Source: Methylophilus methylotrophus DSM 46235 = ATCC 53528
Lineage (GTDB): Bacteria > Pseudomonadota > Gammaproteobacteria > Burkholderiales > Methylophilaceae
Direction of reading: 5' to 3'
DNA length: 64,000 nt
Assembly: GCF_000378225.1 (NCBI RefSeq)
Contig: NZ_KB905143.1
Coordinates: forward strand, 186,001-250,000
How positions within the stretch are numbered: position 1 is the first letter of the stretch; each line of letters starts with the position of its first letter. Shown piece by piece: positions 2,277-24,053 of the stretch. Under the pieces are notes generated by a model. That model was not told where the DNA came from and ran no database searches. It saw only the letters and a list, made by a program, of their open reading frames with translations. Made by a program: the position numbers and the translations under genes.

Positions 2277-4382
2277 ATGAGCAAGCACCCTCACCGAAGC
2301 CCCTTATTAAACCATCCACAAACACCGCTGACACGCGAGCAGATACTGGCTTATTTTCATGAAACATCAGATATTTATGAATCATTGTTTGAGGTACTCA
2401 CCAGTGACGAGGCGTATTACATCAAACCGATTCCACTCCGGCATCCGCTGATTTTTTACTTCGGCCATACCCATACCTTTTTTATCAATAAGCTGATTCT
2501 GGCCGGGCTCATCACAGAACGCGTGAATCCCAGGTTTGAGTCCATGTTTGCTGTCGGCGTCGATGAAATGAGCTGGGACGATGTCAACGAGGCCCACTAC
2601 CAGTGGCCGACACCTGCCGAGGTCAAAGCTTACCGGGCCGGTGTGCGTGAAGTGGTGGATGACTTGATCAATCGCCTGCCGTTGGATAAAGCGATCGACT
2701 GGGAGAGCCCCTGGTGGCCGATTCTCATGGGCATAGAGCATGAGCGCATCCACCTGGAAACCAGCTCGGTGCTGATCCGCCAACACGCCTTAAAATATGT
2801 GCAACCCTCCCCCGCCTGGACGCATACTGCTGACTTGACGGCTGCCGCGCCTGAAAATACCTTGGTGACTATCCCGGCGCGTGAGATTGTGCTGAATAAG
2901 TCTGTCGAGTATTACGGCTGGGATAACGAGTACGGTCACTTTCACATGCACTGTCAGGCGTTTGAGGCGGCAAAATACCTCACCTCCAATGCCGAGTTTT
3001 TGAAGTTTGTAGAAGCAGGTGGCTACCAGAATGATGTCTACTGGCAAGAGGAAGGCCTGGCCTGGCGGCAATACGCACAAGCTGAACACCCCACCTTCTG
3101 GATCAAACACGGTAGCGGCTGGAAACTGCGTTTGATGACCGAAGAAGTCGACATGCCCTGGAGCTGGCCGGTAGAAGTGAATTACCATGAGGCCAAGGCG
3201 TTTTGCAACTGGCTGTCTGCGCAAACCGGCAAACCTGTGCGCCTGCCCACCGAGCATGAGTGGTATAGTCTGTATGAGCATGGAGGCTTGTCAGATGAGA
3301 AGATCGCCAATGGTCATCACGCCAACCTGTTTTTAGACCATGGCGCGTCATCCTGCCCGGTCAATCAGTTTGCGCATGGTGATCTCTATGATGTGGTAGG
3401 CAATGTCTGGCAATGGACAGAAACGCCGATTTTCCCGTTTGATGGGTTTAAAGTGCATCCCTTGTACGATGACTTTACGACACCGACCTACGATGGCCGC
3501 CATAACCTCATCAAAGGCGGTTCGTGGATTTCGACCGGTAACGAGGCGATTAAACACTCGCGCTATGCGTTTCGTCGCCACTTTTTTCAACATGCAGGAT
3601 TCCGCTATATTGTGACTGACACCCCCGTAGAAAATAAAGCCGCGTATTACGAATCGGACAAACAACTGTCTGAGTATGCTGAATTTCATTATGGCGACAG
3701 CTATTTTGGCGTACCTAACTTTCCCAAAGCCTTGAGCGATTATGCCTTAGAGCATTTACAAGCCAAGCCCAGACGCAAAGCGCTCGATTTAGGCTGTGCC
3801 ACCGGGCGCGCCACGTTTGAGCTGGCAAAAGCGTTTGAACACGTCACTGGCATCGATTTTTCTGCCCGCTTTATTGGACTGGCACTGCAGGCGGCCGAGC
3901 AAGGCGTGTTGCGTTACACCCTGGCGGACGAAGGTGAGTTAGTCAGCTACCAGGAACGCACCCTGAGCGCCCTGGGCTTAGACCAGGTAGTCGATAAAGT
4001 AGAGTTCTGGCAGGGCGATGCCTGCAACCTCAAAGCCCAATTCACGGGCTATGACTTTATTCTGGCTGCGAATTTAATTGACCGGCTGTATAGCCCGCGC
4101 CAGTTCTTAAGCAGCATTCATGAACGCCTGAATATGGGCGGCGTGCTCATGATCACCTCACCTTACACCTGGCTGGAGGAGCACACCCCACGCGAAGAAT
4201 GGATAGGCGGCTACAAGCAGGATGGTGAAAATGTGACCACGCTGGATGGTTTAAAAGCCCTGTTAAGCCCGCACTTGACACTCATGCAAGCTCCGGTAGA
4301 GATTCCGTTTGTGATCCGCGAAACCCGCCACAAATTCCAGCATACGCTGTCAGAAGTGACGCTATGGGAGCGCGTGCGTTGA
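2277..4382 (+). CDS. ovoA: OvoA, 5-histidylcysteine sulfoxide synthase / mercaptohistidine methyltransferase
   Basis: This 701-residue protein has the three-part OvoA layout. A DinB-like N-terminal domain carries the iron-binding HERIHLE (H-x3-H-x-E, about residue 158). A formylglycine-generating-enzyme-like domain contains RLPTEHEW, GNVWQWTE and GGSW..RHFFQHAGFRY (about 300-440). A C-terminal SAM-dependent methyltransferase contains LDLGCATGRATFELA (about 502). OvoA is a non-haem iron enzyme that joins cysteine to histidine as a sulfoxide, and its methyltransferase domain methylates the thiol-histidine to give ovothiol A. Length and domain order are normal for the fused form. It overlaps the next gene by 19 bp, so the two are one operon. 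The Shine-Dalgarno sequence is weak. Confidence 0.92.
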   Translation: MSKHPHRSPLLNHPQTPLTREQILAYFHETSDIYESLFEVLTSDEAYYIKPIPLRHPLIFYFGHTHTFFINKLILAGLITERVNPRFESMFAVGVDEMSWDDVNEAHYQWPTPAEVKAYRAGVREVVDDLINRLPLDKAIDWESPWWPILMGIEHERIHLETSSVLIRQHALKYVQPSPAWTHTADLTAAAPENTLVTIPAREIVLNKSVEYYGWDNEYGHFHMHCQAFEAAKYLTSNAEFLKFVEAGGYQNDVYWQEEGLAWRQYAQAEHPTFWIKHGSGWKLRLMTEEVDMPWSWPVEVNYHEAKAFCNWLSAQTGKPVRLPTEHEWYSLYEHGGLSDEKIANGHHANLFLDHGASSCPVNQFAHGDLYDVVGNVWQWTETPIFPFDGFKVHPLYDDFTTPTYDGRHNLIKGGSWISTGNEAIKHSRYAFRRHFFQHAGFRYIVTDTPVENKAAYYESDKQLSEYAEFHYGDSYFGVPNFPKALSDYALEHLQAKPRRKALDLGCATGRATFELAKAFEHVTGIDFSARFIGLALQAAEQGVLRYTLADEGELVSYQERTLSALGLDQVVDKVEFWQGDACNLKAQFTGYDFILAANLIDRLYSPRQFLSSIHERLNMGGVLMITSPYTWLEEHTPREEWIGGYKQDGENVTTLDGLKALLSPHLTLMQAPVEIPFVIRETRHKFQHTLSEVTLWERVR

Positions 4383-5618: not shown

Positions 5619-6341
5619 ATGATGCAAACAGGGAAAATGATGTTAGCTGGGCTGTTGTTATTTGCATTGTTCACAGGCATCGTGGCGCAAGCAAACACGC
5701 TGGAAGAAGCCAGACAAAAGCTCGCAGAAAAAGACTATGCCGCCGCCCACGCCATATATTTGGCCCTGGCGAACCAGAACGATGCCAAAGCCTGCTACAA
5801 CCTGGGCCTGATGTATCAAGATGGCGATGGCGTGACCAAAAACATGGATGAAGCGGTCAAGTGGTACACCAAGTCAGCAGATCTGGGTTACAAAGAAGCG
5901 CAGTACCTGCTGGCCTCACTGGTGTTTCAGCGCCAGACTCAAAGCATCAGCTACCCGCAAGCCGTGACTTATTATGAGCAGGCAGCCAAGCAAGGGCATG
6001 TGAAGTCGCAACTCAACTTAGGCATGCTGTATTTGCGTGGCGATGTGATCGCACAAGACATGCCCGCCGCGGTGAAATGGATAAGCCAGGCCGCCAGCAA
6101 TAACAATAGTGAAGCCCAAGGTTATCTGGCTGACCTCTACCAGCAAGGGGCCGGGGTTGAGCAAAACACGGTCAAAGCAGCCATGTGGCTATTGCTAGCC
6201 ACGCAAAACGAAGACAAGCGCTTTGTGAACCGCCACACCAAAATGCTCAATTATCTTGCTGCGCAAATGAGCGAAGAACAAAAAGCCACTGCCAAACAAT
6301 TGGCCGCACAATGTAACAGCCAACATTTACAAGGCTGTTAA
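5619..6341 (+). CDS. Exported Sel1-repeat (TPR-like) protein
   Basis: A signal peptide (GLLLFALFTGIVAQANT) is followed by four or five Sel1-like repeats with the pattern ACYNLGLMYQDGDGV, AVKWYTKSADLG, SQLNLGMLYLRGD and AQGYLADLYQQGAGV. Such repeats form a solenoid that binds other proteins. The C-terminus has two Cys residues (CNSQHLQGC) that could form a disulfide in the periplasm. AAGGAAAACGC before ATG 5619 supports the start. No enzymatic motif is visible and the partner is unknown. It follows ovoB by 31 bp, so cotranscription is possible, but a role in ovothiol metabolism cannot be claimed. Confidence 0.75.
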   Translation: MMQTGKMMLAGLLLFALFTGIVAQANTLEEARQKLAEKDYAAAHAIYLALANQNDAKACYNLGLMYQDGDGVTKNMDEAVKWYTKSADLGYKEAQYLLASLVFQRQTQSISYPQAVTYYEQAAKQGHVKSQLNLGMLYLRGDVIAQDMPAAVKWISQAASNNNSEAQGYLADLYQQGAGVEQNTVKAAMWLLLATQNEDKRFVNRHTKMLNYLAAQMSEEQKATAKQLAAQCNSQHLQGC

Positions 6342-12120: not shown

Positions 12121-13812
12121 TCATGCTCGATTGACAGAATACTCTTGCATACTAGATTGGTTAAATCCAACCAAAGACTCTTCGATCACATATATCCCGT
12201 AATCTGTAGAGCATGCCTCAAACGCACTAGCTTTGATCAGGCTTTTAACCACCTTGGCGTCTACCCCTAAAATCTCGCCGGCATCTTCCGATGAAATCAT
12301 GCCAGAGAATTTTTGTGCTAGCCTAGAAATGGCTTCATCAATTTGTGAGCGCTGAAAGAGTAAATCACCTGGCTTCTCACCTGCGATGCCAGCAGGCACA
12401 ATCTCGCGAACTCTGATAGCTTCAATCAATGCCGCCTTGATCACCGACGGTCCCAGCTTCTTGAGCAGAATCTGCTTTAAACTGATGTACCGAATATCTT
12501 GTGGTGAATTGGATATAAACTCCACTCCGTCCACCAACTCACTTCTCAACCGCTCAACATCCCGCTCATGAAATAACTTCATTGGGTTGGTCATGAAGTG
12601 TGCCTGGTAATACCCTTTTTGGCGATACACATTCAAAATGGCCACTGGCAAATCCAACCGCTCCGCAGCTTCTTTAATTGTGAGGCTTTGGCCTGCGGCA
12701 AACTCAAATACTAACTGCTCAGTGACCTCAAACAGTGCCTGTCCTTTGGCATTGACTGTATGTACAGGGATCAAGCCTGCAGCCACCATTTTTCGTAATG
12801 TGGCAGGCTGCTTGCTCAATGCCTGTGCCAGTCCATAAATCCCTACGATATTTGATGTGCCACCTTGTTGGAGTTTAGGGTGGATCAATGCTTTACGCCA
12901 CTGGCTTTGGCCAAACTCAACAAAGGCCTGATACATGAATGCCACTTCATCCTTGGGTAGCCCATTCTTAAACAAGGTTTCATAGATCGGCAGAAACTGC
13001 TTACGCAGCCCTGTGCTTGCCATATCGGCCTGTGGTCCCTGCGTTTCCTCCAGATATTGGTGAAAACCCCGAGGCCAGTTCGTAAAGATGCTGGCCGCCA
13101 AAGTGACTGTAGCCATTAAGTCACCATTGGGTTGCGCATCAGCTGAGCGTCCCTCCAGCCGGTATAACAAACTCAGCACTGTGTTGAGCGACAACTTAGC
13201 AATCGCCTCGACAGGAAATCCTAAGGGCTCAAGCAATGAGTTATCCAAATCCTGATTTTCCAGTTTGGCTTTGAGGATATGCATCAAACCAATCACCGTA
13301 TGATTTGTTACCTCGCGAGCCTTTGCATGCTTAAAATCATAGCCGCACTGACATTTGGTGAGCCCTGGTCGAAAGACATCCAGCCCTTTACCGCAGCTTG
13401 GACATTGTTCGATGGTTTCAATCTTATGCTCAGGGCAGACAACAGCATACTTGAGCTCAGTAAAACTGGAGATATAACCCTTCTCAGCGATACAACAAGG
13501 ACAGACTCTCGTATGCTTAGAGCGCAGATACAAACTCGGGATACGATGTCCTGAAAGCACCTGATAGCGACTATGCTTGGTTTTCTCAGAGAGGAAGTCA
13601 AACTCTGACAGATCACTGCCTACCAACCGCTTTAATTTTTCAGGGTCAGGCGTTGCCGAACGGATTTCGTTCTCAGTCATTCCGGCATGCCGGAGCATGC
13701 CGTGAATGGAACGATAACCGTTAGCCTCAGCCACTCTCAAAATATAGCCCTTATAGCTTTCAAAAGGCACAGGTTGAGGTGTGACCACTAATGGCTGAAC
13801 GTTATCAAACAT
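12121..13812 (-). CDS. tniQ: TniQ/TnsD-family transposition target-selection protein
   Basis: 563 residues. The N-terminus (VPFESYKGYILRVAEANGY) is the TniQ start motif. A zinc-finger set follows (CPCCIAEKG, CPEHK..CPSCGKGLDVF, KCQCGYDF, about residues 105-165), then a long helical C-terminal part with HTH-like segments (SLTIKEAAERLDLPVA). TniQ/TnsD proteins bind the target site and recruit the TnsC ATPase. The size resembles TnsD rather than the shorter TniQ of CRISPR-associated elements. The ATG at 13812 shares one base with the tnsC stop (TGATG), so the four genes form one operon. Confidence 0.85.
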   Translation of the reverse strand: MFDNVQPLVVTPQPVPFESYKGYILRVAEANGYRSIHGMLRHAGMTENEIRSATPDPEKLKRLVGSDLSEFDFLSEKTKHSRYQVLSGHRIPSLYLRSKHTRVCPCCIAEKGYISSFTELKYAVVCPEHKIETIEQCPSCGKGLDVFRPGLTKCQCGYDFKHAKAREVTNHTVIGLMHILKAKLENQDLDNSLLEPLGFPVEAIAKLSLNTVLSLLYRLEGRSADAQPNGDLMATVTLAASIFTNWPRGFHQYLEETQGPQADMASTGLRKQFLPIYETLFKNGLPKDEVAFMYQAFVEFGQSQWRKALIHPKLQQGGTSNIVGIYGLAQALSKQPATLRKMVAAGLIPVHTVNAKGQALFEVTEQLVFEFAAGQSLTIKEAAERLDLPVAILNVYRQKGYYQAHFMTNPMKLFHERDVERLRSELVDGVEFISNSPQDIRYISLKQILLKKLGPSVIKAALIEAIRVREIVPAGIAGEKPGDLLFQRSQIDEAISRLAQKFSGMISSEDAGEILGVDAKVVKSLIKASAFEACSTDYGIYVIEESLVGFNQSSMQEYSVNRA

Positions 13813-14843
13813 CAATTGTACAAACCTCCTTTCGGTGTCAATAATGCCCCTTTGGTATTGAGCTCGCGCATGCGTAAACTCTCCAGATCAACAGCCGAAA
13901 GACCAATCCTTGCAACCTGATCCATGAGCGCTTTGGTGGGAGTAGGATCGAATGATGAGGCAAACGGGTTATGTGCAACCGAGACGCCCTCTAGCCATAT
14001 GGCCTTACTGAAAGCCTCCTCCAGGTGTCGCATGGTGATTTCTGCTCTATCATCCTCAATGGCATCCCATACCGCCTGTTTGAGAATCTTGACGACATAC
14101 CCAATCAAGCCACCCGAAGCGCAAAAAAAGCGGAAGGCGATATTCTCATTACCGATCGCCGGCAGTTTGAAATCAACCAACCCAGATTCGAACCCTTTCA
14201 GAATTCTGACGAACTCATGCTGGGAGTCCTGATTCGACCAGTTGTAACGCTGCATTTTGATAGAACCCAGCATACGACCGCTCAACTGCTCGTTCTGGTT
14301 AATCACGTTAATGGAAGTTGGCAGACCAACAACGACCAGGAAAATCTTGGTTTCCTCCAGCAGGTTTTTCAGAAAATCAGACAGGTGATGCTGAACCTTA
14401 TGTGAGCCACGATCATAGAAATGCTGAAACTCTTCAATCACCAGCAAAGTTGTACCAGCCTGTTTAAGTAGCAACTTTAACCGTTCTGTTTTCGTGATTT
14501 CAGTTTCCCGGCCAGTCTTGACGCGGTCACCAATGGCATACAGCATCTCGTCTACGAATCCTTTGACAGTAGGTTTAGCTGGCGTGGTGACTTTGAGAAT
14601 TGGCACCCGCAATCCTTCTTCAGTACGCTCCTGACTATGATTGAGCATCAAGTTATCAATCACTCTGGACTTCCCGCTCCGAGACTCACCAACCACCGCA
14701 ATTCCCAGCGGTTCAACCGCAGTGACAGAGTTATTGAAGTGCTGCTCAAGGCGTTTTGAGGCCATCTGAAAATTGAAACTTGGTATCAATAAGTTATCGA
14801 TACAATTACGGATATTGGTTTGGTTCATAGTTTGTGTATTCAT
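13812..14843 (-). CDS. tnsC: TnsC/TniB-type AAA+ ATPase
   Basis: 343 residues. Walker A is GESRSGKSRVIDNL (about residue 51), Walker B is TLLVIEEFQHF (about 133), and VVGLPTSINVI holds the sensor region. TnsC polymerises on DNA with ATP and connects the target-selection protein to the TnsA/TnsB transposase. Length and motifs are normal for the family. Its start overlaps the tnsB stop by 4 bp (ATGA). Confidence 0.85.
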   Translation of the reverse strand: MNTQTMNQTNIRNCIDNLLIPSFNFQMASKRLEQHFNNSVTAVEPLGIAVVGESRSGKSRVIDNLMLNHSQERTEEGLRVPILKVTTPAKPTVKGFVDEMLYAIGDRVKTGRETEITKTERLKLLLKQAGTTLLVIEEFQHFYDRGSHKVQHHLSDFLKNLLEETKIFLVVVGLPTSINVINQNEQLSGRMLGSIKMQRYNWSNQDSQHEFVRILKGFESGLVDFKLPAIGNENIAFRFFCASGGLIGYVVKILKQAVWDAIEDDRAEITMRHLEEAFSKAIWLEGVSVAHNPFASSFDPTPTKALMDQVARIGLSAVDLESLRMRELNTKGALLTPKGGLYN

Positions 14844-16792
14844 TTACGACGCTCCTGTACGATTGCGGAAAAACCTTCAACTTCATTTAGGGATAAAGAC
14901 ACCATCATGGCATCCGGCATCAACTCAGCCTCAGCTTCGCGATGCTGCTCGACGATGTCTTGGGTACGCTTTTGATCTTCAATCAGACGACCCCGTTTGG
15001 CTCGTAGTCTTGCGCTGGTCTTTTTAAAACCGACCTCCGACATCACCATTTCGTGGATGTCTTTAGAAGCACGCATCCATCCTTTTTCGTTATCCTGGCC
15101 GATTCTGTTTTTGGCATACTTGCGATAAAGCTTGTGCTGCCAAAGCGATAAGCCTTGGGCGTATGCCTGATTCAGCGCAGGCACCGCGACATAGTTACCA
15201 TCCACTGGATGCTTGATATGCACTTGGCCAAGATTGCCCTCATCAACCAAGACTTCGACCGTCAATTTGTCGCCACACTGCTTACGCCAGAGGATCATTT
15301 CCTGCGAGTTGTAGAGCAGGTTATTGACCTGGATGCCCTTATGCGTGAGAGAGCACTCATCGCGTCTGCCCAACAACATGTCGATGACTTCAAGATTGGT
15401 GGCGACTGGCGTATTACTGACTGAGTCAGCATTTCGCCAAGCATCCGCCGGCTTCACCCTTTCGAGACCTGCGTGAGGCTTCTGGTGGTAATAGTCAGCA
15501 ATCCACTTGAAAACGATTTCCTTGAACTTTTCATAACGAATCACGGCATGTTTCTCTGGGTCGTAATCCTCTTTCTCAAAGATGTTGCTGAACGTAGTCC
15601 CAGGGTTGCCATGACTGATACCATCGTTGATCGTTCTCATAAAACGCTCAACACTGCCCTTGTACCAGGGAGACTTACGAGGTGTATATTTGATCTCGAT
15701 ATCAAACTGATAGCAGGCCTTTTCAAAGCTATCGCTGTGAAACTCCATTCCGTTATCCACCACCAGTGTTTTCATCACACCAAACGCCTCCCAGGCATTT
15801 TTAATACTCGGGTATTCCGTTTGCAGAGAAAGCTTAGGTTTCAGCGCATGCTTCAAGCATCTGGCGACAGACAGATAACTAGGCGACTCGAAACCGATAT
15901 AAATACCCAAGATGCAACGGGTATGCTTATCAATACAGACAGTGAGCCACGGACGCCCCAGTGGAATACCAGCGTCATCCACCACAAAGATATCCAGTTG
16001 GGTGTGATCAATCTCAGCCACCTCTAGCCGCTGATTGGTCTCGATATGGTTGAGCTTGCCGCGATACATTCTGCGCGCGACAGTCGCCCCGCGACGGGCA
16101 ACATCCCTGTCAAAGGCCGGGATTTGATCAATTAAACGCTTCACCAGCCGCGCAGATGGCAGAGGTAACTTGCCACTTTGCATCGCCCATTGATTGCGCT
16201 CCTGAATATCCGCTGTGGCCAACTCTAGAATCCTTGTTTGGGTTGGGCGTGATGTGGTTAGGTAAACGTTATCGATAAAACGCTCAACCACTTCAATCAC
16301 TGCATCAGGATAGCGGTTGCAACGATTACCTTTGCGTTGATGCTGTTCCAAAAGAGCTTGAATATCCCGTGCCCCTTTCAGGAACTTCAATACCCATCTT
16401 CGCACCGTGATCCAGTGGGGAATCGGCTGCTTCAAACTGTGGGTATTCCAGAACTCCTGTAAGGCGGCTTGATACATTGCCTTAGTCGCGGGTAGACCCT
16501 CTACTGCTTTCACGCATCCACGTTTGAGCTTGGCCCGATCAAATCCTGCATCAGTAGTATCAATCAGCAGTGCTTTCGCAGGGGGTGTTTTGACAAACTT
16601 GTCACGCTCCAAAATAAAAGTCAGATCCCCGGACTCAAGCGCCAATAACATCTCATCCAACTTAGAAGTCTCAAGATAGCCGGTCTGTGAATCCTCAAGC
16701 TGCCATAGGGCTTCACCTACTTCACGCTTGAGCGTAGACACGCGTCCTTTGAACGAAATTACTGCACCTTTTTGGAAATAAGCGACGCCCAT
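14840..16792 (-). CDS. tnsB: TnsB-type DDE transposase (Mu-type integrase core)
   Basis: 650 residues. N-terminal helical DNA-binding segments are followed by an RNase H-like core with the DDE triad: Asp in VAEIDHTQLDI (about 273), Asp in LVVDNGMEFH (about 355) and Glu in SPWYKGSVERFMRT (about 391). A Mu-transposase C-terminal beta-barrel comes next. TnsB binds the transposon ends, cuts the 3' strands and joins them to target DNA with TnsA and TnsC. It starts 34 bp inside the tnsA gene. The catalytic residues are present, so the enzyme may be active. Confidence 0.88.
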   Translation of the reverse strand: MGVAYFQKGAVISFKGRVSTLKREVGEALWQLEDSQTGYLETSKLDEMLLALESGDLTFILERDKFVKTPPAKALLIDTTDAGFDRAKLKRGCVKAVEGLPATKAMYQAALQEFWNTHSLKQPIPHWITVRRWVLKFLKGARDIQALLEQHQRKGNRCNRYPDAVIEVVERFIDNVYLTTSRPTQTRILELATADIQERNQWAMQSGKLPLPSARLVKRLIDQIPAFDRDVARRGATVARRMYRGKLNHIETNQRLEVAEIDHTQLDIFVVDDAGIPLGRPWLTVCIDKHTRCILGIYIGFESPSYLSVARCLKHALKPKLSLQTEYPSIKNAWEAFGVMKTLVVDNGMEFHSDSFEKACYQFDIEIKYTPRKSPWYKGSVERFMRTINDGISHGNPGTTFSNIFEKEDYDPEKHAVIRYEKFKEIVFKWIADYYHQKPHAGLERVKPADAWRNADSVSNTPVATNLEVIDMLLGRRDECSLTHKGIQVNNLLYNSQEMILWRKQCGDKLTVEVLVDEGNLGQVHIKHPVDGNYVAVPALNQAYAQGLSLWQHKLYRKYAKNRIGQDNEKGWMRASKDIHEMVMSEVGFKKTSARLRAKRGRLIEDQKRTQDIVEQHREAEAELMPDAMMVSLSLNEVEGFSAIVQERRK

Positions 16793-17490
16793 GTTCCTTC
16801 TCCTTCCGCATGTTGATAATTCACCCAGGCAACCAATGTTTCAGCGGTGATGGGCTTTGTAAGGTCAACGAGGAGCAACCCCTCCATAATCAGTTGGCAG
16901 ATGTACTGATTGAGGTATGGATTATCAGGAGTACTCTGCAGAGAGCGCCATGGAATACCGCCCATGCTCTGAAAAAGCCGACGAAGTTGCTCACGGGCCA
17001 ACATAGGCATTTGAATCTTGCCGTTGCGCTTGATGTACCAGGCGTTACTCAAAAACACTGGGTTATCAATCAACTCAGCAATCACTACGTGGTACTGGAA
17101 TCCGTGATTCGGCAACAGCTTTGTCAGCAGATCTGAGCGATCACAAATATGCTGATCCAGACCCGATAAGGTTTTAACCTCAATGAGGTGTTGACCACCA
17201 TTGGTCTCAACATGGAAGTCAGGATAGTGGACATGGTCTTGCCCATTCATGACATACTGGATTTCGCAGGGCTGTGGTCTGAAGCTGATGACATGAGGGC
17301 TCATGTCCAGATACAGCATGCAGTTGCGCTCGTTTTCAGATTCGCACTGCAGACTGGTCTGCATTTTCCAACTTGGGTACTTCAAGGTCACCCGGGCATT
17401 GGACCGCTTCACAACCTTGCGGCTTAATTCCCCAGGTGGGGCAAAAGCGATGCTCGTGACTGAGCAGTCTGATGGTATTAAATAACTCAT
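16759..17490 (-). CDS. tnsA: TnsA-type endonuclease
   Basis: 243 residues. The nuclease core shows Glu in CESENERNCMLYLDM (about residue 50), Asp in VHYPDFHVE (about 92) and EVK in HLIEVKTLSG (about 105), the E..D..ExK arrangement of TnsA. TnsA cuts the 5' strands so that Tn7-type elements move by cut-and-paste. A helical C-terminal domain probably contacts TnsB/TnsC. It is the first gene of the transposition operon. CTCCTAGGAG-like bases just before the ATG supply a ribosome site. Confidence 0.82.
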   Translation of the reverse strand: MSYLIPSDCSVTSIAFAPPGELSRKVVKRSNARVTLKYPSWKMQTSLQCESENERNCMLYLDMSPHVISFRPQPCEIQYVMNGQDHVHYPDFHVETNGGQHLIEVKTLSGLDQHICDRSDLLTKLLPNHGFQYHVVIAELIDNPVFLSNAWYIKRNGKIQMPMLAREQLRRLFQSMGGIPWRSLQSTPDNPYLNQYICQLIMEGLLLVDLTKPITAETLVAWVNYQHAEGEGTWASLISKKVQ

Positions 17491-17965: not shown

Positions 17966-18652
17966 ATGGTCGAATCAAAATCAGCAGAAAAAAAGCCTGT
18001 AGGTAGGCCCAAAACAGATAAATTACTGAAAAAATTTAGGGTACAGACATGGTTTAATGCCGTTGCGGAAGCCAGTGGAAAAACGGCTTATGAATTAGAA
18101 AAGGAATTCGCACCGTCCATTTTGGTCAGGGAAAACTTCAATAAACATCGTGCGAGACTTTGGGAGAAATACCGTCTTGGCAAGACAATGCCGTCGATTA
18201 AGGAAAAGAAAGGCGGTAGAAAAGGAATTGCTCAAATAGTTGAAGAAAAATACCCTGGTACCATCCATTGGCTGACTGATGAACGTTTTGACTTGGCCAA
18301 CGTGGATAAAGAAATCACGATGAAATTTATCAGAGAGGTTTTTGAATCACTACCCCCCGAGATACGTAAATATATCGTTCGCGAAAATGCTAACGCGTCA
18401 ACATTGTTTTGGCGGAAGAAATTTATTACAGAGCTGCCGTTTTACGAAAGCCTAGTTAGAAATCCCTCTCCCCTCGCATTCATAGCACTACTGGCTTTAT
18501 TAAGAGAGTCTTTAATTTGTCAAAATGAAACATGTTTCAATCTCGTCAAAAAAGCGTTAATAAAAATCGAAGATGAAGGCATTCGGCATGGCCCTATTTT
18601 TTCTAGCGTTTTTACAAAGATAATTCTCACTCCGATTCTGATCATTTATTAA
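17966..18652 (+). CDS. Uncharacterised basic protein with AT-hook-like N-terminus
   Basis: 228 residues. The N-terminus is basic and contains KKPVGRPKTDK, an AT-hook-like GRP motif, followed by FRVQTWFNAVAEASG and RARLWEKYRLGKTMP. A second basic GGRKG element precedes a helical middle and a C-terminus that becomes hydrophobic (FTKIILTPILIIY), which might be the result of truncation. No enzyme motif is recognised. It lies in A/T-rich accessory DNA ahead of the nucleotide-enzyme block, 195 bp away, and could be a DNA-binding regulator or an unrelated gene. Confidence 0.5.
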   Translation: MVESKSAEKKPVGRPKTDKLLKKFRVQTWFNAVAEASGKTAYELEKEFAPSILVRENFNKHRARLWEKYRLGKTMPSIKEKKGGRKGIAQIVEEKYPGTIHWLTDERFDLANVDKEITMKFIREVFESLPPEIRKYIVRENANASTLFWRKKFITELPFYESLVRNPSPLAFIALLALLRESLICQNETCFNLVKKALIKIEDEGIRHGPIFSSVFTKIILTPILIIY

Positions 18653-18847
18653 GTGATGGAGATAATCAAAAGCTCTCGGAGCCATGCTCTTCAGGCTAAC
18701 ATAGCATTTAAGTGAGTATTTATTGCTAGCCTGATCTTCATTATTTTGTTTGATGAATGGTAAGATTCAAAGGGCTCTTATGAAAGCCGCCTAAAACACC
18801 TTATGTTTTTGAGATAATCAACTAAACAATAGCAGGGAGTTAAAAGT

Positions 18848-19162
18848 ATGGCTGGTTCAAAAGGGGGATGGCAACCGACTGTGCCGAGCAACCCATGTGA
18901 GCGCGTAAACTTTCGAGCAAACATAAACTCACCCCAACCTGCAGTACTTGGGCCACTCGGTATAACAACAGAACTTGAGGTGAAACTCCAAACGGCTCCA
19001 ACGATTTCCGTAATAGTGGAATATATGGGCGATACAGCAGGATCACTAACAGGCACTCAAGTTGCAGCGCTAATTAACTGTATCCAAAACGGATATAAAT
19101 ACTCCGCTACCATCGTTTCAATAGACAAGGGAAATTATACGGTTCAGGTATCTATAAAATGA
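18848..19162 (+). CDS. Small uncharacterised protein, first gene of the PfkB-NDT/QueC-like block
   Basis: 104 residues starting MAGSKGGWQPTVPSNPCERV. The composition is mainly beta-strand with a C-terminal KGNYTVQVSIK, and there is no signal peptide. CAGGGAG before the ATG is a good ribosome site. Its stop overlaps the next start (ATGA), so it is translationally coupled to the kinase/transferase fusion. The exposed small N-terminal residues (Ala-Gly after Met removal) are noteworthy because QueC-like enzymes of type IV CBASS and Qat systems have been reported to modify a partner protein at its N-terminus. That this protein is such a substrate is inference only. Confidence 0.6.
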   Translation: MAGSKGGWQPTVPSNPCERVNFRANINSPQPAVLGPLGITTELEVKLQTAPTISVIVEYMGDTAGSLTGTQVAALINCIQNGYKYSATIVSIDKGNYTVQVSIK

Positions 19163-20400
19163 CCACATCTCCTATAACTGTTGTCGGTGGCTCATATGGG
19201 GAAGAGTGCGCCTACCCTCGTCTTCAGCTTTACAGAGGAAGCGGTGGTCGAGCAGCAGCAATACTTGCAAGCCTTCATAGCGAGGTTACTTTTCATACTA
19301 CTACAGGCCCTAAGCTGAAACCTATCTTCGAATCAATAGCATCGAATTTAGGTTATAGATTAGTTAATCATCCTAGAATAGATGATATTTGGTTTAGATA
19401 TAGGTATCCTTTAGGTAAACCTACCATCCATTATTGCCTCAATATCGAAAATTCGAACATTCCTCCAATTCATGCAGACCTAGCAATTGTGTATGGGATG
19501 ATAGAGGGTAGGCCTCCAATTCATGCAAAACGAGTAGTATACGATCCTCAGGATGGTATCAAATCTAAACCCTTTGACATTAACGGTTCGACTGCAGATG
19601 AGCTAGCTTTAGTTGTTTCCCACTCTGAAGGCGTGGCTTTAACAGGGGAGACTGAATGTACAAAAATTGCAGAAAAGTTATTCGAGCAACCTAACGTTTC
19701 AGTTGTGGTAGTGAAATGTGGGCCACAAGGTGCATTAGTTAAAACCTCAACAACTCATGACTGGGTGCGTCCATTTCCTACTTATCACGTTCACAAGATC
19801 GGATCAGGAGATGCTTTTTCAGCAGCTTTTGCATACGCTTGGTTGATTGAGGGACAACCACCAGTTTCTGCAGCATGGTTTGCTTCTAGAATAACTGCCG
19901 CCTACGTCGAAGGAGGGCAAGACACGATTGATTCAAATCTTCTTCCCAATTATCGAGAGGAGGCAAAATCAGCAGAACTCAATTTTTCGGGGCAAGGACA
20001 GAGGTTTATACCTAACACACAAATTTATATAGCAGCTCCTTTTTTCAATACCGCAGAACAATGGCGAGTTGATGAAGTCAGAGATGCCCTTCAGGACATG
20101 GGATTCAAAGTATTCTCTCCTATACATGATGTCGGCATAGGACCCGCAGAAGAGGTCGCGCCTGCTGACCTCTTTGGACTTGAACAGTCTGGTGTAGTCA
20201 TTGCATTACTAGATGGTTTAGATCCTGGTACTGTATTTGAAGTAGGATACGCAAGAGCTAAAGACATTCCTGTAGTAATTGTAGCTGAAAGTGTTAATCC
20301 TGAATTACTAACTATGATTATAGGATCAGGTTGTGAAGTTACAACTGATCTTACTACTGGTATATATGCTGTATGCTGGTTTCTGATGGGTGATGTCTGA
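19159..20400 (+). CDS. PfkB-family kinase fused to a nucleoside 2-deoxyribosyltransferase domain
   Basis: 413 residues. Residues 1 to about 270 are a PfkB-type carbohydrate/nucleoside kinase: VVGGSYGEECAY at the start, GSGGRAAAILASL, and the catalytic KIGSGDAFSAAFAYAW (about 215). Residues about 290-405 are a nucleoside 2-deoxyribosyltransferase-like domain with IYIAAPFF, a central ADLFGLEQSGVVIALLDG, and GTVFEVGYARA holding the conserved Glu. Such domains cut or swap the base on (deoxy)nucleosides. The fusion suggests one protein that releases and phosphorylates a nucleoside-like compound. It is coupled upstream to the small protein and overlaps the QueC-like gene by 8 bp. Confidence 0.75.
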   Translation: MTTSPITVVGGSYGEECAYPRLQLYRGSGGRAAAILASLHSEVTFHTTTGPKLKPIFESIASNLGYRLVNHPRIDDIWFRYRYPLGKPTIHYCLNIENSNIPPIHADLAIVYGMIEGRPPIHAKRVVYDPQDGIKSKPFDINGSTADELALVVSHSEGVALTGETECTKIAEKLFEQPNVSVVVVKCGPQGALVKTSTTHDWVRPFPTYHVHKIGSGDAFSAAFAYAWLIEGQPPVSAAWFASRITAAYVEGGQDTIDSNLLPNYREEAKSAELNFSGQGQRFIPNTQIYIAAPFFNTAEQWRVDEVRDALQDMGFKVFSPIHDVGIGPAEEVAPADLFGLEQSGVVIALLDGLDPGTVFEVGYARAKDIPVVIVAESVNPELLTMIIGSGCEVTTDLTTGIYAVCWFLMGDV

Positions 20401-20986
20401 TCTCCTGCTACTCTCTGGCGGTATTGAGTCATCTGCAATAGCCGCATGGCTGCGGCCTTCTCTATGCTTAACAATTGACTATGGGCAACTTGCATCACAA
20501 GCAGAAATCACTTCTGCGGCTCAAATATGCAAAGAATTAAAGCTTAAGCATCTGGTTAGGAAGGCCGATACAACTCAATTTGGCAGTGGTGATATGTTAA
20601 ATAGAAAGGGATCCGTTCATTCGGAGAATTCAGAATTTTGGCCTTTCCGTAACCAGCTCCTCATTACTCTTGGAGCTATGATCGCAATGCAGCATGATTG
20701 TGCCCGCATTCTAATTGGTACTGTTGTAACTGATTTGAGGCATAAAGATGGTACAAAAGACTTTATAGTAGCAATGAATAAATTACTAATTATTCAGGAA
20801 GGTAAACTAAACCTCTCGGCACCAGGTATAGAATTAACAAGTATTGAACTGATCCATAAATCAAAAATATCGACAGGAACCCTTGGATGGTGTCATTCAT
20901 GCCATATGAGTAATTTTGCTTGTGGTCAATGCCGAGGTTGCTTTAAGCATTCCGAGATAATGAGAACGCTGGGGTACGAACGCTAG
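20393..20986 (+). CDS. QueC-like 7-deazaguanine synthase homologue
   Basis: 198 residues. The N-terminal P-loop SGGIESSAIAAWL is the PP-loop ATPase motif of QueC (7-cyano-7-deazaguanine synthase). LTIDYGQLA follows, then PFRNQLLITLGAMIA, and a Cys cluster at the C-terminus (CHSCHMSNFACGQCRGC) binds zinc as in QueC. QueC turns 7-carboxy-7-deazaguanine into preQ0. Relatives occur in antiviral loci such as type IV CBASS and QatABCD. No queD/queE/queF is nearby, so a tRNA-queuosine role is not suggested by context. The ATG at 20393 is preferred to the GTG at 20390. Its TAG shares the CTAG palindrome with the convergent glycosylase gene. Confidence 0.8.
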   Translation: MSDLLLLSGGIESSAIAAWLRPSLCLTIDYGQLASQAEITSAAQICKELKLKHLVRKADTTQFGSGDMLNRKGSVHSENSEFWPFRNQLLITLGAMIAMQHDCARILIGTVVTDLRHKDGTKDFIVAMNKLLIIQEGKLNLSAPGIELTSIELIHKSKISTGTLGWCHSCHMSNFACGQCRGCFKHSEIMRTLGYER

Positions 20987-21822
20987 AAACCCTTAAAAAG
21001 AAGTTGTGTTTGCCGCCTTTCAGGCTGTGTTAGTTTAGTTTGATTATTTGTTTTGCATAACTGCTTATCTCGCAATGCATTTAATGCTACCCCACCGAGA
21101 CTACGCATTTGATCCCATATAAGACAGTCAAGAACAGAAGGTCTAACACCTAAAGCCTCGCTGAATTTAAGGAAACGTGTTTCCATTGCAAAATAATTTT
21201 TTTCTACTCGTTCATCCGAGCTAAAAAAACCACATAGCACGCCAGCGCGAACGATATGAATATCTAATATGGCCACCTCATCGGAATCAGAATAGTTGCG
21301 AGTAATCCAGCCAGCTGTTTTTGGACCAATACCCTGTATTTTTAACAACGAATCTCTAAGTGCTAGACCAGAGACCTTCTCTAAAGGATTCTCCTGTAAA
21401 AATCCCATAGCAGCACCAAGAAAACGTGCTTTTTGGTTCGGGTAGCGATAATGTTGCGTTTTGCCATTCAAACTTAAAGGTCGCAGAAGCACAGCACTCC
21501 AAACCTCAGGATTTGACTCCATTGTTTGTATCAGCCCTCTTTCGCAACAGGCTTCAAATGCTGCTGTTGCAAGCTCTGCAGTAATCCCAAATCCTCCGAG
21601 CAAACAAAAAACCACTTCTTCAGCAAGAGTTCCTCGAGCTTGATACGGTGAATGCTGAACTTTATCCAAGTCATTCATCCAAAATTGAGACAACCAATAT
21701 GCGGGAGTAAACAATGTCCAAGGTTCGCCCCACCGAACACCGGGCATAACCTCTGCATCAGCAGCAGGAAAATGACGAACTATTTCCTCTTCATTAATCC
21801 AATAGCGTAATGTTTGAGTCAT
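20983..21822 (-). CDS. HhH-GPD DNA glycosylase, 8-oxoguanine (OGG)-like
   Basis: 279 residues. The helix-hairpin-helix motif IQGIGPKTAGWITRN (about residues 170-185) carries the candidate catalytic Lys, and the following VAILDIHIVRAG carries the conserved Asp. This is the arrangement of bifunctional OGG/AP-lyase enzymes that remove an oxidised or otherwise modified purine. The flanking sequence differs from housekeeping OGG/MutY and there is no iron-sulfur cluster. OGG-like genes are known companions of QueC-like genes in type IV CBASS. It overlaps the methylase gene by 4 bp and shares its stop palindrome with the QueC-like gene. Confidence 0.72.
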   Translation of the reverse strand: MTQTLRYWINEEEIVRHFPAADAEVMPGVRWGEPWTLFTPAYWLSQFWMNDLDKVQHSPYQARGTLAEEVVFCLLGGFGITAELATAAFEACCERGLIQTMESNPEVWSAVLLRPLSLNGKTQHYRYPNQKARFLGAAMGFLQENPLEKVSGLALRDSLLKIQGIGPKTAGWITRNYSDSDEVAILDIHIVRAGVLCGFFSSDERVEKNYFAMETRFLKFSEALGVRPSVLDCLIWDQMRSLGGVALNALRDKQLCKTNNQTKLTQPERRQTQLLFKGF

Positions 21823-22544
21823 ATATCAACTCGCTGTTTAACTTCATTGGATAACCAAGAATAAAGTGAGGACTTTTCTGACTCAGATAACTTGCTAATA
21901 CGATCTCTGAGCCGGTCTTGTCTACGCTTGATTAGTTCGCGTTCACGAAAGTCGCTGCCCAAATAACGATCGTCGTGAAGTACACTTGGTTTTTTATAGT
22001 TAAACCATACCCATTCTTCCCGAATTCCTACGTGTGTCTTTGCTTCAAATCTATACACTGACCAATTCGCCAGATATTTCTCGTATAGTTTTGATGGATA
22101 GCCAGACAATATGACCTTGCAAGGAAGAGATGTTAAGCACTCCAATAGACGGACATGATCCTGCTCCGTGTAATCACATCGATAGACACGGGTCCGACGG
22201 CGTGTTTCTGTCATGTATGGGGGGTCTGCATATACCACCGTATCAGCATCAAGGCTCATAAACTCGAGGTGACTTACGGCATCACCATGAATAATGTCGC
22301 AATAATGGGGAAAATTCTGACTCCAAGTTTCTATTACCTTAGAATCAAGATCTATTCCTATTTGACTGATAGCTGGTCGTTTATGCCGCATTACAGCACC
22401 GCCACCTAGGTGAGTTTCTATGTACCTCCGATGAGGAGGTATGAGATTAATGATATGAGGGAAACTGACCCCTTTTCCACCGTCGTAGCGCATGACGAAA
22501 TCATCGCTAAATGTGGCGATGGTGTCAAGTTGGATTATTAACAC
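21819..22544 (-). CDS. D12-class (Dam-type) N6-adenine DNA methyltransferase
   Basis: 241 residues. RYDGGKG at the N-terminus, ETHLGGGAV (SAM-binding motif I, about residue 45) and VVYADPPYMTETRR (catalytic DPPY, about 108) define the D12/Dam class that methylates adenine N6. The C-terminal part is charged and helical. The target sequence is unknown and no restriction enzyme gene is adjacent. The start is uncertain: an in-frame ATG at 22493 (MRYDGGKG) fits the family better than the GTG at 22544. It is coupled to the OGG-like gene (ATGA overlap). Confidence 0.8.
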   Translation of the reverse strand: MLIIQLDTIATFSDDFVMRYDGGKGVSFPHIINLIPPHRRYIETHLGGGAVMRHKRPAISQIGIDLDSKVIETWSQNFPHYCDIIHGDAVSHLEFMSLDADTVVYADPPYMTETRRRTRVYRCDYTEQDHVRLLECLTSLPCKVILSGYPSKLYEKYLANWSVYRFEAKTHVGIREEWVWFNYKKPSVLHDDRYLGSDFRERELIKRRQDRLRDRISKLSESEKSSLYSWLSNEVKQRVDI

Positions 22545-22900
22545 CTGAGTTTAATTACGAAGTTAATTTGTAAGCGCCGCCTTCTTCACGCCTATTAATT
22601 CATATCTAGGAGAACTGAAAATTGTCGCTCATTTTCCTTATTCATCGATTACAGCCTGGTGGGGCAGTGAACAGTACACAACAATTCAATGTCAATAATG
22701 TTGACGGTTTAATGCATATGAAAACTTTGAAGTTTTACTACCCATTTACCGTTAAATGAAAAACCTGTGACATAAACTTTACTGAATATATATTGGTTCG
22801 CATAAAAAATGCTCCGTATTTTCAAATCGCAAACAGATTCATTTCAACCGCGCGGCAGCGAAATTTGGTAGAATTCGAAAGTTTCTTTAGGGGAGTTATC
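22545..22900. other. A/T-rich intergenic region between divergent accessory genes
   Basis: This 356-bp gap holds the promoters of the divergent methylase and ImmA/IrrE genes. A small open stretch from a TTG at 22622 (AGGAG nine bases upstream) to 22759 would encode 45 residues (LIHRLQPGGAV..VNNVDGLMHM). It shows no family features and may be decayed coding DNA. Nothing else is recognised. Confidence 0.35.
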
Positions 22901-23422
22901 ATGAGCGAAGATATTAGGCCATGTAAGCTTGGTAAAGATAAAATCTTCGAGTTTAGTGAAATAGTCGCTCGAGACTTAGGTTATAAACCTGGCGATTCAT
23001 TAGCTCCAATCGTCGAAAAGCTCGGCGGCAAGATTCATTATCAAAGCTTGCTTGAAATGGATTCTGCATCTGGCTCTATATCAATTAGCGATATCGGAAA
23101 CTTTGAAATAAATCTTGCAGACCATACAAGTGAATCAAGGGATAGATTCACAATTTGTCATGAACTAGGCCATTATTTCCTGCATTACATTTTTCATAAA
23201 AGCAATGGGGATGAAATAGGCTCGCTCAAAGCAATGCGTTATGGCGACTCCTTCGCAGAATATGAGGCCAATTGGTTTGCTGCAGGATTCCTAATGCCAA
23301 AAGAAGAATTCACTTCAAGTTATGTGAAGTTTGCTGGAGACTTGTACTCTCTTGCTTCTCATTTTTTCGTCTCTGTTCAGGCGGCTGAAGTTAGAGCTAA
23401 ATCGCTAAATCTCCTCAATTGA
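22901..23422 (+). CDS. ImmA/IrrE-family metallopeptidase
   Basis: 173 residues from MSEDIRPCKLGKDKIFEF. FTICHELGHYFLHY contains the HExxH zinc motif (HELGH), and EYEANWFAAGFLMP supplies the downstream Glu typical of ImmA/IrrE peptidases. These usually cleave a repressor or partner in response to a signal such as damaged or phage DNA. GGGGAG before ATG 22901 supports this start over the longer frame from 22793. It ends one base before the cyclase start, so the two are one operon. No Xre-type repressor domain is fused or adjacent. Confidence 0.8.
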   Translation: MSEDIRPCKLGKDKIFEFSEIVARDLGYKPGDSLAPIVEKLGGKIHYQSLLEMDSASGSISISDIGNFEINLADHTSESRDRFTICHELGHYFLHYIFHKSNGDEIGSLKAMRYGDSFAEYEANWFAAGFLMPKEEFTSSYVKFAGDLYSLASHFFVSVQAAEVRAKSLNLLN

Positions 23423-23423
23423 A

Positions 23424-24053
23424 ATGCAGGATATCAGCTTAGCGGAACTGAATGTTCCCCAATTCCTTAAGCCTAAGCTACGATTATTTCTTAGTGTAGA
23501 TATAGTTGGCTCAACCGCATTTAAACAATCCACTCCCAAAAATCTCAACTCTACAGAGGTTAGTCCTGCTTGGTTTAGGGCAACCACGAATTTTTATCGA
23601 GAGATTGATCGGCTCTTCATCCAAGAGTGGAGAGCATTGAATAAAGAAAATCAGACCGACTATAGCTGGCCAAGTGGTGACGAACCAAACCTATGGAAGA
23701 GTGCTGGTGATGAGCTCATCTACACTGTTCAAATCAAAGATTATAGACATGTAGCAGTGTATGTAATTGCGTGGAAAAGAGCTGCAGAAAAATTTAGGCC
23801 GGCCATTAAGAAGTTTTCAAAAAGCTTGGACTTAAAACTGACTGGTTGGATAGCGGGGTTTCCTGTAATTAATCATGAGCTAATCCTAAGATCAGGTCAG
23901 TCAGAGGATATGGTAGATGATGACTCAGTTGTTGCAAATTTTAGATTGCTGCAAAAATGTCGTCTGCAATTTGACTTAAGACCCAACATCAATACAAATC
24001 AAAGACTTAGTAGGAGTCATGCAAATATGAATTTCAAGCCATTTGCAACATAA
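23424..24053 (+). pseudogene. N-terminal half of a class III nucleotide cyclase gene, interrupted by the czc element
   Basis: Genuine coding runs to codon 178 (23957). The remaining residues up to the TAA at 24051 are read from the transposon end. The genuine part holds the two cyclase metal-site motifs, LFLSVDIVGSTAF (about residue 25) and WKSAGDELIYTV (about 92), and the strand WIAGFPVINHEL. Class III cyclases of similar layout make cyclic nucleotides, including the cCMP/cUMP signals of Pycsar antiphage systems. The DYIGPSIDNGFRL segment with the transition-state Asn/Arg positions is missing here and is found 8.6 kb away. The product is therefore expected to be inactive. Confidence 0.8.
23953..23957. 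repeat. Target-site duplication, left copy (AAAAA)
   Basis: AAAAA directly before TGTCGT at 23958. The matching copy is at 32547-32551. Keeping only one copy joins codon CAA-AAA of the N-terminal half to TTT-GAG of the C-terminal half in frame. The sequence is low-complexity on its own, and the frame restoration is what makes it convincing. Confidence 0.8.

Follow-up and report, generated by a model that had tools for sequence, protein, structure and literature searches.

This report concerns a 64,000-nucleotide stretch of the genome of Methylophilus methylotrophus DSM 46235 = ATCC 53528 (contig NZ_KB905143.1, positions 186,001 to 250,000), hereafter the window, and a compact block of five genes within it (Table 1). 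An earlier note, made from the letters alone, had described the block as a small protein, a PfkB-like kinase fused to a nucleoside 2-deoxyribosyltransferase (NDT) domain, a QueC-like enzyme, an OGG-like glycosylase, and a Dam-type methylase, and all five open reading frames (ORFs) were found where it placed them. The first three genes form a plus-strand operon with overlapping ends, and the other two are an overlapping minus-strand pair facing it tail to tail. The overlaps also proved to be as claimed, namely ATGA at 19159-19162, 8 bp at 20393-20400, 4 bp at 21819-21822, and a shared CTAG at 20983-20986. The start of the QueC-like gene was taken as ATG; the mechanical ORF list begins at a GTG 3 bases earlier. 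The PF00294 match in the fusion protein covers the C-terminal part of the Pfam model only, and the small protein matched nothing in Pfam, PADLOC, or NCBIfam at E <= 1. Elsewhere in the source genome (2.86 Mb) lie a strong match to canonical-type QueC (2.7e-78) and one to the QueD family, so the QueC-like gene of the block is an extra copy.

Table 1 Coordinates of the block and of related features (positions in the window, unless a locus is named)
Feature	Position	Strand	Basis or remark
Small protein (104 aa), putative target of the QueC-like enzyme	18848-19162	+	ORF; N-terminal MAGSKGG tail, predicted HIRAN-like core
Small-protein tail codons (about residues 1-16), presumably flexible	18848-18895	+	Low pLDDT
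PfkB-like kinase fused to NDT domain (PfkB-NDT)	19159-20400	+	PF00294 1.1e-11, PF05014 2.7e-16
QueC-like enzyme (QueC Cluster 4), proposed 7-carboxy-7-deazaguanine conjugase	20393-20986	+	ATG start; PF06508 1.3e-21
OGG-like helix-hairpin-helix (HhH) DNA glycosylase	20983-21822	-	PF22175 7.4e-12; K168 and D187 in place
D12/Dam-type adenine methylase, optional part	21819-22544	-	GTG start; PF02086 1.3e-9; TIGR00571 8.5e-12, below cut-off
Tn7-like gene beside the block, TniQ-like	12121-13815	-	Label is ours
Tn7-like gene beside the block, TnsC-like	13812-14843	-	Label is ours
Tn7-like gene beside the block, TnsB-like	14840-16792	-	Label is ours
Tn7-like gene beside the block, TnsA-like	16759-17490	-	Label is ours
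Rhizobiales hybrid locus	L147 5953-10364		
Rhizobiales hybrid locus	L151 1667-6067		
Rhizobiales hybrid locus	L145 6010-10374		
Third lineage, Neotabrizicola	L148 3269-6285		
Third lineage, Cupriavidus	L149 3287-6268		
Third lineage, Proteus	L150 3277-5627		

Recurrence in other genomes was the test by which the earlier note had offered to be refuted, and the block does recur, with the core genes present in 59-61 of 61 loci. This set comprises the window, 10 plasmid loci, and 50 genome loci, each located by means of its QueC-like gene. Scanning GTDB genomes with a QueC profile gave at least 55 loci, which are not a census; five of them (L063-L067), which have none of the companion genes, were set aside. 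The small protein is encoded in 59/61 loci and PfkB-NDT in 60/61, and at the loci that miss a core gene (L042 and L053) the QueC match lies no more than about 550 bases from the end of a contig. OGG-like and Dam-type genes are found in 42/61 and 22/61, respectively. The set recurs with varying gene order; the Dam-type gene is optional, and the OGG-like gene is missing from 19 loci. Two further companions that the window set lacks are a SagB-like gene (39/61) and a dGTPase gene (11/61). At 85% QueC identity, the 61 loci form 52 groups. Among the 42 OGG-like genes, 31 lie downstream on the minus strand, 10 upstream on the plus strand, and one between the small gene and PfkB-NDT; that this gene shifts its position yet remains adjacent argues for function over descent of one fixed block. 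Reverse searches agree, since 19/20 plasmid records found from OGG and 24/24 closer records found from PfkB-NDT also hold the QueC-like gene. A P. putida plasmid (L146, OGG at 2392-3141) is the sole OGG record without a QueC-like match. The block is conserved and real, beyond chance co-location.

Judged by their record titles, the 61 loci are spread over bacterial phyla including Pseudomonadota, Bacteroidota, Planctomycetota, Verrucomicrobiota, Acidobacteriota, and Campylobacterota, and also include a spirochaete, Geobacter, an actinobacterium, a Bacillaceae metagenome-assembled genome (MAG), a cyanobacterium, and haloarchaea. The distribution is patchy. Of 398 genomes sampled evenly across the window's phylum, 6 have the enzyme, the window genome included; the five others all have the small protein, PfkB-NDT, the SagB-like gene, and OGG, with Dam in three and dGTPase in one. 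Among the window genome and 100 relatives, only the window genome has the small protein (1/101). A plasmid search with the QueC-like protein gave 26 records, of which two (H34 and H35) are distant, canonical-type matches. The same search with the small protein (single-sequence tblastn) gave 9 records, all within the 26, and several more of the 26 hold the small protein by profile. No QueC match was found in a phage collection at E <= 1e-20, and seven contigs of IMG/VR carry a relative. A Methylorubrum locus (L049 1-2873) has two NDT stretches, and its small gene comes after QueC.

The QueC-like enzyme has the motifs SGG..S, YGQ, RN, and HxDG and a four-Cys motif. It matches the Cluster 4 signature CH(x)5CxxCxGCxK (C-H-MSNFA-C-GQ-C-R-G-C-F-K in the window), and residues C170, H171, C177, C180, G182, C183, and K185 are invariant in 44 aligned sequences. 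In the YGQ(x)6E motif, Y30, G31, and E38 are invariant and Q32 nearly so; five residues, not six, lie between Q and E, which is possibly a counting difference. HxDG stands where the canonical enzyme has YPDC, and the TIGR00364 score is 69.4 against a cut-off of 150.3. The AlphaFold2 (AF2) model has a predicted local distance difference test (pLDDT) score of 92.2. Its closest chain is Cap9 9nto_B, from the Cap9-CdnD complex with NDG (Z 21.4, 2.2 A, 174 residues), followed by QueC (Z 18.9 and 17.9) and QatC (15.2), whereas by sequence profile alone canonical QueC (4.6e-14) is slightly ahead of Cap9 (5.1e-12). In the profile alignment, D119 aligns with Cap9 D117, which reads the guanine edge, and H117 aligns with Cap9 Y115, which stacks the base; QatC has Thr at both positions (PMC13279940). 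D119 is invariant in 44/44 aligned sequences and in nine sequences from four groups. Because this Asp is kept and the Tyr has become His, the alignments suggest that the enzyme likely binds a guanine-like base, perhaps with altered stacking.

A QueD-family match is present in 37 of 42 genomes that carry the system. One pointed observation on base supply comes from Microbacterium (L060 4233-5375), where queD and queE-like genes lie directly beside the OGG gene of the block. The QueD protein meets the NCBIfam cut-off, and the five best models of the radical-SAM protein are all QueE, each below its cut-off. The block's QueC is the only QueC-family match in this genome, in which no canonical queC was found. 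QueD-family matches occur in 15/79 genomes of the genus, L060 included. A search of 396 genomes of that phylum found the enzyme at 4.6e-69 in L060 alone, with 32 others at 8e-21 or weaker.

Homologues of the small protein share 16-40% identity with the window protein. Their N-termini are mostly M-S-G-S, or a similar M-small-G-S/G, and then run into a Gly/Ser-rich stretch. Starts were picked by a pattern that demanded S, A, G, T, or C as the second residue and G or S as the third, which makes the counts there partly true by construction; with such starts, which two ORFs (L036 and L051) did not offer, residue 3 is G in 55/57 proteins. A fair figure is given by the start of the longest ORF, where M[SGACT]G[SGT] is found in 33/59 small proteins and in 0/289 ATG-started control genes. 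When any in-frame ATG is allowed, the motif is found in 53/59 small proteins versus 5/488 control genes. In the plasmid records, 9/9 start annotations made by others read M-[S/G/C]-[G/S]. Methionine aminopeptidase requires a small second residue. The CD-NTase modified by Cap9 starts with MGGS and QatB with MGTS (Gao et al., PMC13279940).

Structure prediction of the 104-aa protein, a check proposed in the earlier note, gave a confident core with a HIRAN-like fold of moderate strength. The AF2 model has a pLDDT of 90.9, with means of 60 for residues 1-10, 79 for residues 11-20, and 95-97 beyond. The best fold match is lp_0118 (3k2y; Z 11.8, 2.2 A, 87 residues). Crystal chains of the HLTF HIRAN domain match at Z 8.6-9.2 over 88-91 residues with a root-mean-square deviation of 3.4-4.6 A (4.6 A and 91 residues for the best, Z 9.2), and its nuclear magnetic resonance model at 6.5. 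Other matches are Rad5 (Z 7.9), HamB of Hachiman (7.5, and 3.8 for a second HamB chain), and SmpB (6.4). The best Foldseek E-value is 1.7e-3, and the comparison tool warns that Z below 8 is common; the resemblance of the predicted core to the HIRAN fold is therefore a moderate claim. The HIRAN domain of HLTF binds DNA 3' ends. A sequence profile of the small protein gave only E-values >= 0.5 against the PDB. Residues C17 and C78 are invariant in 51/51 aligned homologues. The haloarchaeal small proteins (L007 4146-4781 and L011 4119-4778) seem, by reading, to have two tandem copies of the core.

The partner enzymes keep the residues of their families. In the PfkB part, D218 is conserved in 57/57 homologues, and in the NDT part G357, T358, and E361 are conserved in 57/57, 57/57, and 56/57. 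K168 and D187 of the OGG-like protein, presumably catalytic as in its family, are invariant in 27/27 aligned sequences. The nitroreductase-fold gene in 39/61 loci is SagB-like by profile (CyaGox, SagB-type dehydrogenase, BmdC). A dGTPase, an enzyme that yields deoxyguanosine, is found near 11/61 loci versus 0/32 control regions (p = 0.014), a modest link in which related loci are included and two of the 11 supplied queries. Each of the 32 control regions surrounds a queD-family gene in a genome that carries the system, and some genomes were used twice. The dGTPase gene overlaps the QueC stop in L004 and L055; in L045 and L054 it lies upstream of the small gene, with gaps of 23 and 133 bases, respectively. 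Between dGTPase and small protein, L013 has a gene for an AEP-like primase (5700-6269, PF24387), and L015 has one that is placed by position only (5740-6315).

Two further lineages are related to the block. On Rhizobiales plasmids, 13 records share the QueC and PfkB of a hybrid that joins a TIR domain to a tRNA-guanine transglycosylase (TGT), and three of them (L147, L145, and L151) were read. PfkB comes first, followed by the TIR-TGT fusion, OGG, QueC, and a ThsB-like TIR protein with MGGGSSGS or MGGGGGGD at its N terminus. The TGT assignment is supported in L147 by PADLOC (8.5e-23) and by Pfam below cut-off (6e-5), and in L151 by Pfam (1.6e-9); the TIR-TGT reading frame of R. etli L145 is interrupted. 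Both hybrids compared (L147 and L145) have a degenerate NDT motif and an intact PfkB motif. The hybrid thus carries the tail on another body and has a TGT where the NDT has decayed. The third lineage has an MGS[S/T]GSG small protein, PfkB-NDT, and a QueC with an IDC motif. The next protein is glycosylase-like by profile comparison in L149 (probability 90) and by eye in L148, and neither has a Pfam family match. The small-protein core of L149 is related to that of the window (profile comparison, probability 83).

The neighbours of the block are rich in defence genes, and some loci adjoin transposition genes. Tn7-like genes lie beside it in the window and are its possible vehicle, although no convincing terminal repeats were found for the ends of such an element. 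TnsB- and/or TnsC-like relatives occur near L012 (annotated there as TniB), L024, L027, L047, and L051, and in 0/32 control regions. A version of the block is present in 10/5426 complete E. coli genomes, where it is chromosomal. Four of these islands were viewed: integrase genes and dGTPase stand alongside the block, yjcB is downstream, and ssb1 is on the other side in three. Two have a UvrD-helicase and ATP-dependent nuclease pair, and two a response-regulator cassette. In a PADLOC comparison, 120 neighbour proteins matched 253 families and 120 control proteins matched 7, numbers that are redundant because one protein can match many models. Each side consisted of 120 of 150 listed proteins, trimmed by hand; the omissions among system neighbours included dGTPases, QueD/QueE, some Tns genes, and every protein of L015 and L038. 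Neighbour genes were called by a crude longest-ORF rule. AbiLi, AriA, Old, PtuA, GajA, and AbiEi are among the best 25 of the 253 families. In the window, a gene for an M78/ImmA-IrrE-like peptidase adjoins the block (22793-23422; PADLOC capP-like, 3.6e-22) and is followed by an ORF at 23424-24053. No tRNA was found in the 64-kb window.

The best reading of the block, and one that we hold to be fairly probable, is a mobile, defence-associated system in which a nucleobase is conjugated to the N terminus of a protein. Once the first Met has been removed, the ATP-dependent QueC-like enzyme would join 7-carboxy-7-deazaguanine (CDG) to the flexible M[S/G]GS-type tail of the small protein, by analogy with Cap9 acting on the CD-NTase in type IV CBASS. 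The NDT would then probably move the attached base onto deoxyribose taken from a deoxynucleoside, and PfkB would probably phosphorylate the tethered base-sugar, such that the protein carries a nucleotide. Conjugation of CDG to the small protein is likely, and its elaboration by NDT and PfkB is moderately likely. The gene set, the motifs, the predicted folds, the mobility, and the defence context of this model are computed. The HIRAN-like core may bring the conjugate onto DNA, perhaps at its ends; handling DNA or sparing that of the host may fall to the OGG-like glycosylase and the methylase; and the outcome may be protection against phage. Recurrence of the core genes, the related Rhizobiales hybrid, and the dGTPase near some loci also speak for the conjugation reading. 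The earlier note had suggested an undescribed conflict or DNA/protein-modification system with the small protein as the possible modified partner; the N-terminal motif, the QueC fold, the CDG genes of L060, and the defence neighbours favour this, but the pairing of QueC with PfkB-NDT had already been published.

Several observations count against this reading. Residue 2 of the small protein is Ser in 48, Gly in 6, and Ala, Thr, and Cys in one each of 57 pattern-chosen starts, and it is Ala in the window, whereas the residue modified in CBASS is Gly. A Ser at this position lowers the claim of an identical acceptor, not that of a like chemistry. The base-stacking Tyr of Cap9 is His here, and the base could differ from CDG. 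No QueD match was found in 5/42 genomes that carry the system (four MAGs and Sphingomonas aquatilis); S. aquatilis and MAG L037 have canonical QueC, but MAGs L018, L032, and L053 have no full canonical QueC either, and no source of CDG is visible in them. No second case of adjacent queD/queE was found in the 61 loci by phmmer with both L060 proteins, which gave a weak match in L066, outside the set. For 51 members of the small-protein family, there was no Pfam HIRAN match at E <= 0.5, in a single-sequence hmmscan that can miss distant relatives. In addition, OGG is missing from 19/61 loci and the SagB-like gene from 22/61, and the dGTPase link is modest, as described above.

The conjugation reading can be extended in steps, nucleotide elaboration and then a weapon against DNA ends, and these are progressively bolder. 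Taken jointly, the steps that follow are improbable. Where dGTPase is present, it would give deoxyguanosine, the NDT would swap its guanine for the protein-borne 7-deazaguanine, and PfkB would phosphorylate the sugar. The HIRAN-like domain would bring the nucleotide-headed protein to exposed 3' ends of invading DNA, where the nucleotide would be built in or the end capped, as a DNA-protein block. The OGG-like glycosylase would excise the conjugated base from host DNA as self-repair. Base exchange would be the task of either TGT, as in type IV CBASS or the TIR hybrid, or NDT, the two being interchangeable, and the immune proteins would form a single 'nucleobase-headed' family with a swappable body, be it CD-NTase, HIRAN-like, or TIR.

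A different explanation is DNA modification and restriction, in which a deazaguanine (deoxy)nucleotide would be made and put into DNA, OGG and Dam would restrict and mark, and the small protein would only bind DNA. The OGG-like and Dam-type genes, the HIRAN-like fold, the CDG genes of L060, and the defence setting would suit it, and 7-deazaguanines occur in DNA (PMC13329287). We nevertheless think it unlikely: no TGT/DpdA-type match was found among the eight window proteins scanned (17966-24053), Dam is present in only 22/61 loci and OGG in 42/61, and the conserved N-terminal tail and its recurrence on a TIR protein are left unexplained. Salvage of purines or deazapurines is less probable again. 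Here, NDT and PfkB would recycle deoxynucleosides and the QueC-like enzyme would activate a purine carboxylate, which is near to the published reading of Cluster 4, based on its PfkB-NDT neighbour (PMC13329287), and agrees with the intact NDT and PfkB motif residues. However, salvage does not explain the tailed small protein of 59/61 loci, the patchy spread (6/398 genomes of the phylum, and the small protein in 1/101 of the window's own circle), or neighbours rich in defence genes, and it fits poorly with OGG, TIR, and TGT partners. We give still less credence to a pathway like that of ribosomally synthesized and post-translationally modified peptides. In it, the small protein would be a precursor, and the SagB-like oxidase and an adenylating QueC-like enzyme would alter its tail. 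The fourth gene of 39/61 loci, with its profile match to CyaGox and BmdC, and the Gly/Ser-rich tail point that way, but 22 loci, the window set among them, lack the SagB-like gene, no cyclodehydratase matched among the eight window proteins, and a confidently folded core with conserved Cys is atypical of a precursor. A chance gathering of unrelated genes in a mobile element, although some loci adjoin transposition genes and some parts are optional, is contradicted by the co-occurrence in both directions (52 QueC groups keep the core; 19/20 anchored on OGG, 24/24 on NDT) and has next to no probability.

If N-terminal nucleobase conjugation is correct, the block would add a member to a kind of bacterial immunity discovered only recently. 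QueC-driven deazaguanylation of proteins is known from a 2025 report on one defence system and has been suggested for a second; the block would be a third, widespread case. It would offer a partner with a different body and enzymes able to act on nucleosides. The purpose of the attached group is left open for QatB in the Qat paper (PMC13279940), and the NDT, PfkB, and dGTPase partners, which point to conversion of a base into a nucleotide, are a testable lead on it. A published enzyme cluster ascribed to purine salvage would be re-read as immunity. Since E. coli genomes carry a version of the block, direct tests can be made in laboratory E. coli.

Among known systems, type IV CBASS, which we take to carry an OGG companion like that of the window block, has the QueC-like conjugase (Cap9) that is nearest in predicted fold. 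Both have an enzyme of the base-exchange type, TGT in type IV CBASS and NDT in the window block. A partner protein with a Gly/Ser N-terminal motif is likewise shared (PMC13279940). Type IV CBASS differs in its CD-NTase and TGT-like Cap10; the claim of the earlier note that neither is present here was borne out by Pfam and PADLOC among the eight window proteins scanned. In the window block, the proposed substrate is HIRAN-like, PfkB-NDT and the Dam-type gene (SagB-like in relatives) are added, and HxDG replaces YxDC. The PADLOC QueC model, applied to 398 genomes at E <= 1e-30, gave no type IV CBASS loci, but the controls were equally silent, so this negative carries no weight. Qat resembles the block in having a QueC-family enzyme and a partner with a disordered N terminus and a Gly motif (PMC13279940). 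It differs in the KAP ATPase QatA and the TatD nuclease QatD, neither of which matched among the same eight proteins. Moreover, QatB is described as helical, unlike the HIRAN-like window protein, and QatC has Thr/Thr where the window enzyme keeps Asp.

The Rhizobiales TIR-TGT hybrid shares PfkB, QueC, OGG, and the Gly-rich N-terminal tail with the window block, but bears the tail on a TIR protein, has its TGT fused to TIR, and has a degenerate NDT in L147 and L145. With the HIRAN domains of HLTF, Rad5, and HamB, the window protein shares a predicted fold (Z 9.2, 7.9, and 7.5, respectively), but it stands alone at 104 aa and has no Pfam-level match to them. Cluster 4 of the QueC superfamily, in which a PfkB-NDT neighbour occurs in about 89% and which has been read as purine salvage (Libby et al. 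2026, PMC13329287), has the same CH(x)5CxxCxGCxK signature and PfkB-NDT (PF00294-PF05014) operon neighbour as the window enzyme. The available text of that paper on Cluster 4 makes no mention of a tailed small protein, OGG, a SagB-like gene, dGTPase, or defence, and its main text has zero occurrences of glycosylase or methyltransferase. Beyond Cluster 4, the open PMC literature, which leaves subscription papers mostly uncovered, gave no report of the block as a defence or protein-tagging system. By the genes tested, the block belongs to neither type IV CBASS nor Qat, but very likely relies on chemistry of the same kind.

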